From contig JAHLWX010000004.1 of the NCBI GenBank assembly GCA_019057675.1, positions 1-47,752 on the forward strand: a stretch of DNA of 47,752 nucleotides. Reading direction: 5' to 3'. Both the position numbers and the translations under genes were made by a program. The DNA is from Candidatus Jordarchaeum sp. LHC_1308. Its GTDB lineage: Archaea > Asgardarchaeota > Jordiarchaeia > Jordiarchaeales > Freyrarchaeaceae. This document shows positions 38,424 to 45,159 of the stretch, in pieces (within the stretch, counting starts at the first letter, position 1; the number at the start of each line of letters is the position of its first letter). Under the pieces are notes generated by a model. That model was not told the origin of the DNA, made no database searches, and worked only from the letters and a program-made list of their open reading frames with translations.

Positions 38424-38963
38424 TTAAACCGCCTGAGCACTTCGTCCAATAATGATCATTCTAGCTAGGTCGGTGAATGCCTCATTAACATTCATACCCG
38501 TCTTAGCGCTAGTTTCAAAGTAAAGCAGGTTATGCTTAATTGCGAACTCGAGCGCGTCCTCAAGGGGAACGCTTCGGGGCATGTCATGCTTGTTTCCGAT
38601 TAAAATCAGCGGTACATTGCCACAGTGCGCTCTAACCTCCTCAATCCAGAAGGGTAATCTTTCGAAGCTCTTCAAATTAGTCACGTCGTAAACGCAGAGG
38701 CCCCCAACAGACCCCCGATAATACAGAGGTCTAATGTGACTAAACCTGTCCTGTCCCGACTGATCCCAGACCTGAAACTTGACAACAGCGCGGCCAAAAG
38801 GCGTATCAACTTCAATGCTCTTCACGGCAAAGTCGACTCCAACAGTCATCTTGTAGCTTTCTGAAAACACGCCCTCACTGAAACGCCTTGTTATGGAAGT
38901 TTTACCGACGCCCCCGTCTCCAACTATTACCACCTTAAACAAGTAAGCATAGTCCGCCGCCAT
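38424..38963 (-). CDS. Rab/Ras-like small GTPase
   Basis: Stand-alone small GTPase of the eukaryote-like Rab/Ras type, 179 aa. All G motifs are intact: GDGGVGKTS (G1, residues 15-23), MTVGVDF (switch I Thr), [10 protein letters not shown] (G3), GNKHD (G4) and ETSAKT (G5). The switch II glutamine is present, so intrinsic hydrolysis is expected. No C-terminal cysteine is available for prenylation, so membrane attachment must occur another way or not at all. ATG 38963 follows GAGGG. Partners could include the Roadblock protein at 20.5 kb (inference). Confidence 0.93.
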
Positions 38964-39947: not shown

Positions 39948-40041
39948 TGGAGCCCCGGCCGGGCTTTGAACCCGGGACCTTCTCATTACCAGTGAGACGC
40001 TCTAACCAGGCTGAGCTCTCCCGCAGTCGAGGTACCGGGGC
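39948..40041 (-). tRNA. tRNA-Thr (GGT anticodon) with apparent 16-nt intron
   Basis: Read on the minus strand, GCCCCGG (40041-40035) pairs with CCGGGGC (39958-39952); T73 and an encoded CCA follow (39948-39950). After U8-A9 the D stem GCTC should begin, but 16 extra nt (40032-40017) intervene. Removing them gives a standard cloverleaf: D arm GCTC/GAGC, anticodon stem TCTCA/TGAGA with loop CTGGTAA (anticodon GGT at 39988-39990), variable loop AGGTC, and T arm CCGGG/CCCGG with loop TTCAAAG. U73 suits archaeal tRNA-Thr. A second GCCCCGG occurs 12 nt upstream (40053-40047) but would not place U8 correctly. Confidence 0.85.
40017..40032 (-). other. Apparent non-canonical tRNA intron (position 9/10)
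   Basis: The 16-nt insert CCTCGACTGCGGGAGA separates A9 from the D stem; it could equally be shifted by one nt because A flanks both ends. A classic bulge-helix-bulge with a 4-bp central helix is not obvious by eye; the best local pairing is a short C-C-T/G-G-G helix. Splicing therefore remains to be shown. Confidence 0.65.
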
Positions 40042-40077
40042 GGCTTCCGGGGCTTCAATCCTTAAGGAAAACCGTTC

Positions 40078-40151: not shown

Positions 40152-41927
40152 TTAGACTCGTATTTTCTGGTTTTGTATTCGAGGCTGTTGTTTGGCTTGT
40201 GATAGCAAGTCCAGCACTGTTAGGGCGATTATCTTGGCGGCTTCCAGTATTTCCTTTATTGATACCTTTTCGTTTGGTTTGTGTTTTTGTTCTCTTTCAC
40301 CTGGCCCGAAAGAGACTGCCGGGATCCCGTTTAGTATGCAGATCTTAGTCGATGAGGCTTCCATTTCACCTATGAGCCTAGCCTCTTCTCCGGTTATCTC
40401 ATTCACGTTCTTTTTTAAAGCCTGTATTAGGAAGTGGTTTTGGGGCATCTCCGTCGGTGGCTCTGAAAGAATTACGTCGAGTGATATTTCGACTCCTTTA
40501 ACCTCCTCTTCTGTTTCTCTTACGATCTCTGTTAAACGGGAAATTATTTCCTCCTCGCTTATAGCTGGATTGTACCTTACGTCTATCGTGGCCTCAGCCT
40601 TATCGGGCACGATGTTTACCCCTATGCCTCCCTGAATTGTTCCTATGTTCAAGGTTACTTCTCCCATGAGAGGGTGAGGTGGCACGTCAAACTTAACCTC
40701 GGATATTTTCCCCAAAAGCTTTATTAATGCCTGCACGGCATTTACTCCCCCCTGCAAGGGGGACGCATGGGCGGGGGCGGAGTAGCCTCTGCAGATGACC
40801 TTAAACCAGATCAAGCCTCTTTCCGCGATGCATATATCTCTGCTTCTCGTGCTTCCTCCGACTATGGCGTAGTCCGCCTTTATTTTTCCCTCCCTCAAGA
40901 GAAATTTTATTCCGAGTTCTCCGGCTGCTTCCTCGTCAGCTGTTGCTGCAAGCAGTACTGTGCCGTCGAGTTGCAGGTTTAGCTTTTTGATAGCGCGTAA
41001 AGCGAGCAACATGGCAGTCAGAGAACCCTTAGCGTCCACGCTTCCTCTTCCTATTACATATCCATCCTTCACTGTTGCTCTAAAAGGTGGATAAATCCAC
41101 CCGTCCCCCGGTGCAACGACGTCAAGATGAGCCGACAGCATCACAGTTGGCTCACCCTCTCCCAGTCTTCCTATAACGTTGGTTCGCCCCTCCTTTTTCT
41201 CGTAAATTTCCGTTTGGGCTCCTATCCTATATAGCTCCCCCAATACTATTTCAGCGGAGCTTCGTTCGTACCCTGGAGGGTTAAGCGACTGGGCGGATAT
41301 GAGGTCTCTCAGCAAGTTAACCGCGTAGTCCTCGCTTTCGTCTATGACTTCCATGAGGCGCTTTCTTAGTTCCGGCGTCAACCTTAACGGAACCATCTTC
41401 ACCTTCTCTTCTTCCCTGATCCCTAAGATGAGTCTAGCTACGGCCTTGAAGGACTCGTCAACCATGTACCTCGTCTTTGCGCTCGTCTCAAAATAGAGTG
41501 CGCCAAGCTTTCTAGCTACTTGTTCTGCTTCATACCTTGGAACCCTCCGCTCACTAATCAAGTCATGCTTGTTCCCTATCAAGATTATCGGTATCTTGCC
41601 ACATGTGCTTGTGAGCTCATTATACCACTTTTCAATGTTCTCAAAACTTTTCATATTCGTTAGATCGAAGACTATTACTCCCCCCTTTGCTTCAGTGTAG
41701 AAAAACGAGCGAAGGTGGGCAAAACTTGGCTGTCCTCCCAGATCCCAAAGTTGCAGTGTGACAAGCTTATCGTCCAGATCAATTTTGTAAGAGGCAAAAT
41801 CAGCTCCTAGAGTTGGACGGTAATCCGTTGGAAATCTATTTTCAGTAAGAACTAAGATAAGACTTGTTTTTCCAACACCACCGTCTCCGATAACGACAAT
41901 CTTGAAAACATATTCCTCTTGTGCCAC
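40152..41927 (-). CDS. Rab-like GTPase fused to an M20 (ArgE/DapE-type) peptidase
   Basis: One continuous 591-aa frame. Residues 8-170 are a complete small GTPase: GDGGVGKTS (14-22), PTLGADF (switch I T39), WDLGGQ (61-66), GNKHD (118-122) and ETSAKT (147-152). After a charged linker, residues about 190-590 are an M20 metallopeptidase/deacylase: SAHLDVV (H267), GRGSVDAKGS (D298), TADEEAAG (E332/E333) and C-terminal QKHKPNE. The ligand motif usually written GEPT reads GGST (residues 357-360), so one metal-binding Glu is missing. GTG 41927 is 4 nt after AGGTGA; the frame is open to 41957. An internal ATG (41396) behind AAGGTGA might also yield a separate peptidase. Confidence 0.9.
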   Translation of the reverse strand: MAQEEYVFKIVVIGDGGVGKTSLILVLTENRFPTDYRPTLGADFASYKIDLDDKLVTLQLWDLGGQPSFAHLRSFFYTEAKGGVIVFDLTNMKSFENIEKWYNELTSTCGKIPIILIGNKHDLISERRVPRYEAEQVARKLGALYFETSAKTRYMVDESFKAVARLILGIREEEKVKMVPLRLTPELRKRLMEVIDESEDYAVNLLRDLISAQSLNPPGYERSSAEIVLGELYRIGAQTEIYEKKEGRTNVIGRLGEGEPTVMLSAHLDVVAPGDGWIYPPFRATVKDGYVIGRGSVDAKGSLTAMLLALRAIKKLNLQLDGTVLLAATADEEAAGELGIKFLLREGKIKADYAIVGGSTRSRDICIAERGLIWFKVICRGYSAPAHASPLQGGVNAVQALIKLLGKISEVKFDVPPHPLMGEVTLNIGTIQGGIGVNIVPDKAEATIDVRYNPAISEEEIISRLTEIVRETEEEVKGVEISLDVILSEPPTEMPQNHFLIQALKKNVNEITGEEARLIGEMEASSTKICILNGIPAVSFGPGEREQKHKPNEKVSIKEILEAAKIIALTVLDLLSQAKQQPRIQNQKIRV

Positions 41928-43880: not shown

Positions 43881-45159
43881 ATGGCCCCAACCGCAACCAG
43901 CGCCAGCACCTCGACAGGCCCCCTAGCCTTCCTCACCATGCTGGAGAAGAGCACGCGGAAGGCCTACCGCTCGCTTTTGAAGAGATACCTCTCCCACTTC
44001 TACGAACAGGTGGAGGACCTAGAAGCGGTGGCTACCCGATATCTGAGGGAGATGGTCGAGAAGGACCTCCAGGACTTCTTTGCTTCCCAGAAGGAGAAGA
44101 AAGTTCCAGGTTTGACTTTGAGGCAGTGCCAGTCGGTGGTGAGATGTTGGCTGATGGAAAACGACATAGAACTTCCAGCAAAGTTCTAGAAAACCCTAAA
44201 CAGGCGGCTGGGCCCGGCAAGGTCGTGGACCCAGGACAAAGCTCCATCTCCCGGCGAGTTGAGGAGCATACTCTCCCACATGGACCTCAAGGTGAGGGCT
44301 TTCTTCCTGTGCCTAGCCTCATCCGGCATGCGGATAGGGGAGCTTGTGCAGGTGAAGGTGAGGGATGTCGAGTTGGAAAAAGACCCCCCAGAATCCGCAT
44401 CAGAGCCGAATACACCAAGACGAGGGTTCCAAGGGTGGCTTTCATATCCCGAGAGGCAAAGGAAGCGGTTCAAGAATACTCAAGGTCAGGGACCAGTATC
44501 TGGGTTTGGCGGTGAAGAGGAGCAAGCGACACAAGAAGACCCCCGAGGATGATAGGCTATTCCCCTTCACCGAAACCAACGCCCGCTCCGTTTGGGACAA
44601 CGCCGTGGGGAAGGCTAAGCTCGACGAGACAGACCCCAGCACAGAAAGGAGGGTTTTCCACCCCCACGTTCTTAGGAAGTTCTTCAGAACAAGAATAGCT
44701 ACGGCTATACCAGTAGACATGGTAGAGGCTATGATGGGCCACGAGGAATATCTGACCAGGGCCTACCGGAGGCACAGCGAGGAAGAGCTGGCGGAGCAAT
44801 ACAAGAGGGGCGAGCACACTATCCTGATCTTCGAGACCGGGAATATCGAGGAGGTAAAAAAGGAGATGGAAGAAAAAATGAAGAATATTCAGAGGAGGTT
44901 GGAAGTTGCGTTGGAGCATAACCGTGAGGTGGAGAGAAAAGTAAAAGAGCTAGAGCCATCTCTCATGGATTTGGCGTTAGATATTGGACTGGAGGCAGGG
45001 ATTTGGGCAGCGGCTCGCTATCTTGAGGAAGGGGTTGAGGAAGGGGGCCTCGATGAGAAGGAGGCTCTTAGGGTGTTTGAACAAATGAAAAAGGAGCTTA
45101 AGTTGCGTCGAATGGGGGGACAAAATGGAGACCCGGCATCAAGGAAGGGTGAACTATGA
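43881..45159 (+). pseudogene. Broken tyrosine recombinase (integrase)
   Basis: A tyrosine-recombinase-type integrase in three reading frames. The N-terminal core-binding domain runs 43881-44186 to a TAG (44187-44189) whose context suggests a former TGG. The same frame continues with LSHMDLKVRAFF and the box I arginine ASSGMRIGEL. A frame change at the C6 run 44384-44389 leads to the beta-hairpin Lys segment RIRIRAEYTKTRV. A second change near 44477-44481 leads to HPHVLRKFFRTR, then GHEEYLTRAYRR with the catalytic Tyr. A C-terminal coiled coil ends at 45159. All catalytic residues survive, so decay is recent or the lesions are sequence errors. The region is visibly more GC-rich than its neighbours. 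Confidence 0.85.

Follow-up and report, generated by a model that had tools for sequence, protein, structure and literature searches.

The window, a stretch of 47,752 nucleotides, lies on contig 4 of a metagenome-assembled Asgard genome (Candidatus Jordarchaeum sp. LHC_1308, here G000; 1.9 Mb). On its reverse strand we found a single frame of 591 codons, stop-free on translation. The one protein that it encodes combines a Rab-like GTPase with its complete set of motifs and a full M20 fold of the ArgE/DapE type, joined by a short flexible linker (Table 1). A first-pass annotation had described a complete small GTPase fused in frame to an ArgE/DapE-type M20 hydrolase, and domain searches bore this out. 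Besides Pfam Ras, the protein matched Peptidase_M20 (PF01546, residues 263-572, E=1.6e-33), and its score of 273.9 bits with the NCBIfam model TIGR01910 (ArgE/DapE family deacylase) exceeded the cut-off of 217.6. Among the NCBIfam models listed, it stayed below all DapE and ArgE equivalog cut-offs, with a best score of 203.7 for DapE (cut-off 381) and 153.4 for acetylornithine deacetylase, ArgE (cut-off 297.7). The Foldseek top match of the larger half was H. influenzae DapE (5vo3, TMt 0.84), which shares the full catalytic and lid subdomains and differs from the fusion protein by having no GTPase added at its N-terminus. Both the catalytic and the dimerisation subdomain of peptidase family M20 were thus recognized, by PF01546, PF07687, TIGR01910 and Foldseek. 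AlphaFold2, given 22 aligned sequences from the window and the loci, predicted two confident domains with a weak linker at residues 173-180 (mean pLDDT 85.5, pTM 0.67). Both the sequence and the length of the linker differed among orthologues.

Table 1. Position of the fusion gene, its parts and a separate GTPase gene in the window.
Feature	Position	Strand	Basis
Fusion gene, 591 aa	40152..41927	-	GTG start at 41927; Pfam; single-frame orthologues in 7 further genomes, one more truncated at a contig end
Rab-like small GTPase domain, residues 9-167, five G motifs	41427..41903	-	Pfam Ras (PF00071), E=3.9e-51; 7ezb nearest
Linker, residues 168-193	41349..41426	-	Flexible at 173-180 (AlphaFold2 pLDDT <50), then beginning of helix 185-196
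Internal ATG (Met178) after AAGGTGA	41394..41396	-	Candidate second start of the first-pass annotation; not conserved in the genus
M20 ArgE/DapE-type domain, residues 194-576	40200..41348	-	Pfam; TIGR01910 above cut-off; Foldseek 5vo3
M20 dimerisation/lid subdomain, residues 367-475	40503..40829	-	M20_dimer (PF07687), E=6.8e-18; alignment
Codon of Gly358, which replaces the presumed metal-ligand Glu (DapE Glu163)	40854..40856	-	Alignment to H. influenzae DapE (3ic1)
Rab-like GTPase of 179 aa, stand-alone gene outside the fusion	38424..38963	-	Pfam Ras, E=2.8e-51; syntenic in G001, G002 and G003

Inspection of the GTPase half showed that all motifs from G1 to G5 were present (GDGGVGKTS, the switch I Thr, DLGGQ, NKHD and ETSAK). 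The nearest solved structure was the Thorarchaeota Rab 7ezb (E=1.7e-38), and in its fold and its complete set of G motifs the domain resembled the Asgard Rab-like GTPases, from which it differs in lacking a free C-terminus, being joined to the M20 domain instead. The C-terminal prenylation Cys motif of true eukaryotic Rab proteins was not present in the fusion protein, where the GTPase continues into M20, and we therefore use the name Rab-like rather than Rab. The N-terminal half is thus predicted to be a complete Rab-like GTP switch that lacks a lipid anchor at its C-terminus, and the M20 module on its short flexible linker would take the place of that anchor. Fusions of Asgard GTPases to longin, roadblock or unknown domains have been described before (PMC10933270), so that the novelty here lies in the type of effector covalently attached to a Rab-like GTPase rather than in the occurrence of a fusion as such. 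The first-pass annotation knew of no described GTPase-M20 fusion, and we likewise found no description of one, nor of an M20 pseudopeptidase, in the literature searched, which comprised open-access papers without subscription papers or preprints. Our searches also returned five long Asgard frames (L043, L045, L046, L051 and L052) in which a Rab-like GTPase was followed by several hundred C-terminal residues; these C-terminal regions had no Pfam match except for a zinc ribbon in two of them, and none contained M20.

The same architecture was searched for in 228 Asgard genomes. All eight genomes examined of the order Jordarchaeales carried the fusion gene, namely four of Jordarchaeum (G000-G003) and four of its sister family (G004-G007). 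It was an uninterrupted single frame in seven of these, and in G001 a contig end fell inside the M20 part. Full-length orthologues were 49-81% identical. For some of them the genome search listed stops, but these sat at the ends of the matches, and the translated frames were stop-free. Two separate genes at the junction, which the first-pass annotation had named as the finding that would speak against a fusion, were looked for throughout the order and not found. Joining of two genes during assembly could be suspected with a single metagenome assembly of 120 contigs as the source, but we rejected it as having practically no chance of being correct, because such divergent orthologues in two families carry the identical junction. 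Beyond the order there was only one additional full-length match, in G184. This fusion gene (L042, G184:C59) lay on a contig of 4389 bp, and the genes around it resembled those of the sister family. The genome is placed outside the order and has 9% contamination. The L042 protein was 82-88% identical to the sister-family proteins, domain by domain. Misbinning or transfer could account for it, the contig may be misbinned, and we treat this case as unsure.

The nearest matches outside the order were otherwise stand-alone M20 proteins (~40% identity) or stand-alone GTPases, and no other Asgard archaeon had an independent GTPase-M20 fusion among the matches listed. In a tree of the M20 half all fused proteins formed one clade (support 100), with the stand-alone M20 proteins of family f12 as its sister (support 88). 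These stand-alone Asgard proteins (L016-L018) were the closest relatives of the fused half, about 40% identical to it. The GTPase-half tree likewise united the fused proteins (support 95), and both trees divided them into the same two families. Both trees together with the order-wide distribution indicate, as the simplest reading, that the fusion formed once, before the two families separated, and was then inherited vertically.

The first-pass annotation had left room for a separately made peptidase, with translation starting at the internal ATG in the linker. The flexible linker and the AAGGTGA ahead of this ATG would be compatible with halves that are made separately from an internal start or matured separately by linker cleavage. 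However, Met178 was absent from the other readable Jordarchaeum linkers (G002 and G003), the sister family had only irregular start-like codons, and no conserved cleavage motif was seen in the linker. We rejected the internal start, since it is not conserved and sits in a variable, poorly conserved stretch, and separate production or maturation of the halves in general appears very unlikely.

Operon context was considered as a clue to a substrate and gave nothing firm, as the neighbours of the fusion gene were housekeeping genes, encoding ribose-5-phosphate isomerase, thioredoxin-reductase-like flavoproteins and Nudix proteins, with NikR and a tRNA synthetase in the sister family. In both families, most loci had thioredoxin-reductase-like and Nudix genes near the fusion, in support of the orthology of these loci. 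Directly behind the sister-family fusion gene (L038-L042) a NikR-type nickel-responsive regulator (RHH and NikR_C) was encoded, which was absent from the corresponding place in Jordarchaeum. This absence agrees with the fact that a presumed metal ligand is lost in Jordarchaeum, as described below, although this is only a correlation.

Further observations concerned other genes in the window and in related genomes. Stand-alone Rab-like GTPases were encoded directly downstream of, and in the same direction as, an M42 aminopeptidase at three loci, L002 (G000:C12), L048 (G003:C2) and L049 (G001:C1), and this GTPase-M42 pairing as separate genes thus occurred in three of the four Jordarchaeum genomes. 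M42 aminopeptidases belong to the same metallopeptidase clan as M20. No M42 aminopeptidase was found beside those sister-family GTPases that were inspected. A tRNA-Thr(GGT) at 39959-40017 on the reverse strand of the window was matched by Rfam without its acceptor stem and was missed by ARAGORN. A candidate 5' acceptor strand, AGCCCCGG, reaches to about position 40058, and the roughly 25-30 extra bases between this strand and the D arm are a candidate non-canonical intron in an unusual place. On the forward strand, frames with Pfam similarity to tyrosine recombinases (Phage_integrase) were located at 43881-45159 beside a flavoprotein gene and possibly represent a small integrated element.

The catalytic residues of the M20 half were numbered by alignment to H. 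influenzae DapE (3ic1), whose His67, Asp100, Glu134, Glu135, Glu163, His194 and His349 correspond to residues 267, 298, 332, 333, 358, 387 and 549 of the window protein. The sister family kept all seven of these catalytic and metal residues. The window protein did not have the full set: it kept the equivalents of His67, Asp100, Glu134, Glu135, His194 and His349, the equivalent of His194 (His387) lying in the lid subdomain behind an insertion of two residues, and Gly358 stood in the place of Glu163. We take Glu163 to be a metal ligand, as in the M20 family, in keeping with the alignment; a text search for papers stating this role found none. Position 358 was glycine in all four Jordarchaeum genomes, and each of the 15 other M20 domains in the alignment had glutamate there; the unfused M20 proteins of family f12 also kept the glutamate. 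Residues P272 and A304, invariant elsewhere in the M20 alignment, were altered in all four Jordarchaeum proteins as well. Two of the genomes showed additional, separate losses, each drawn from one metagenome assembly, namely E332G (DapE Glu134) in G002, and H387Y (DapE His194) together with N438G in G003, the Asn at 438 being shared by all 15 other M20 domains. Glu134 of DapE has been proposed to act as general acid/base, and His194, provided by the other chain, is a key catalytic residue (PMC5919655).

The two halves of the protein also differed in their rate of change. Among the four Jordarchaeum genomes sampled, the ratio of M20 to GTPase amino-acid divergence per residue was 1.85-2.44 (Fisher p 0.005 to 8e-7), while in the sister family it was about 1 without reaching significance in any comparison (p 0.17 to 1). 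Nei-Gojobori dN/dS values within Jordarchaeum were ~0.08-0.13 for the M20 half versus 0.04-0.05 for the GTPase half, these values being rough as dS was near saturation. Such low dN/dS values argue for purifying selection on both halves, and for the M20 half they indicate constraint and not free decay. So the constraint on the enzyme half would seem to be relaxed and altered in Jordarchaeum only, with the fold retained. One might take the Jordarchaeum M20 half for a remnant that is fading and has little function left, with selection acting on the GTPase and the C-terminal part only tolerated, which would agree with the catalytic losses and the faster change of M20. We consider this improbable because the readable frame was uninterrupted in each of the four genomes, most of the fold-defining invariant positions were kept, and the dN/dS value is low.

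With regard to a possible pseudoenzyme, what was observed in Jordarchaeum is the loss of the presumed metal ligand in four of four genomes, extra losses in two of four, and an M20 dN/dS of ~0.1. In known metallopeptidase pseudopeptidases the fold is likewise kept while catalytic residues are lost, and the proteins take binding or scaffold roles; a text search of a review of these proteins found no M20 member, and none with a GTPase (PMC11266112). In the main rival reading, the window protein has remained an active M20 amidohydrolase, perhaps with a single zinc ion, and the fused GTPase determines its activity or position. Catalysis in a weak or altered form is conceivable because six of the seven classical active-site residues are kept and DapE with one zinc ion retains >60% activity (PMC5919655). 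The sister family, moreover, retains all residues, and its fusion gene is closely followed by the metal-responsive regulator of the NikR type. However, the residue lost in the window protein is invariant in all other aligned M20 domains and has no conserved acidic substitute nearby, close relatives lack the general base (G002) or the trans-acting His (G003), and the M20 half is accelerated in Jordarchaeum only. We therefore regard continued enzymatic activity of the window protein as rather unlikely, although it is the strongest competitor.

With moderate confidence we prefer to view the Jordarchaeum protein as a GTP switch whose M20 module is catalytically impaired and serves pairing and the binding of a ligand or partner, derived from the single, order-wide fusion. 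With its metal ligand gone, the M20 half would be decaying catalytically while its fold is kept, and its hydrolase activity is probably reduced or absent. As M20 lid domains dimerise, the GTP switch might use the module for pairing of two chains, and the module, being non-catalytic or weakly catalytic, might also bind a ligand or partner. The two halves are presumably coupled.

For the sister family a different prediction can be made from the residues that are present. We predict its M20 half to be catalytically active as a metal-dependent amidohydrolase, and the whole protein is plausibly a switch-linked deacylase. The GTPase could set the location of the hydrolase, its partners or pairing, or the closure of its lid. 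An effect on pairing or closure is conceivable because DapE-type enzymes are dimers in which the lid closes over the active site of the partner chain (PMC5919655). The earlier suggestion of a hydrolase under the control of a molecular switch therefore holds up for the sister family, where the catalytic residues are intact, but not well for Jordarchaeum, where Glu163 is replaced by Gly in all four genomes and a further residue is lost in two. Taking both families together, we tentatively propose, as a possibility still short of an even chance, a single-chain switch-effector that is an intact GTP-controlled enzyme in one family and carries a pseudo-hydrolase as dimerising or ligand-sensing effector in the other. 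If true, the two families would display both ends of a change from enzyme to effector.

Asgard archaea are the group closest to the eukaryotes and are rich in Rab-like GTPases, yet to our knowledge the downstream partners of these GTPases are almost unknown. The covalent fusion identifies a partner of one such GTPase without guesswork, and this partner is an amidohydrolase fold. With the active site kept in one family and lost in the other, control of an enzyme by a GTPase becomes directly testable, and the same pair of families also makes testable the conversion of an enzyme into a non-catalytic switch effector.
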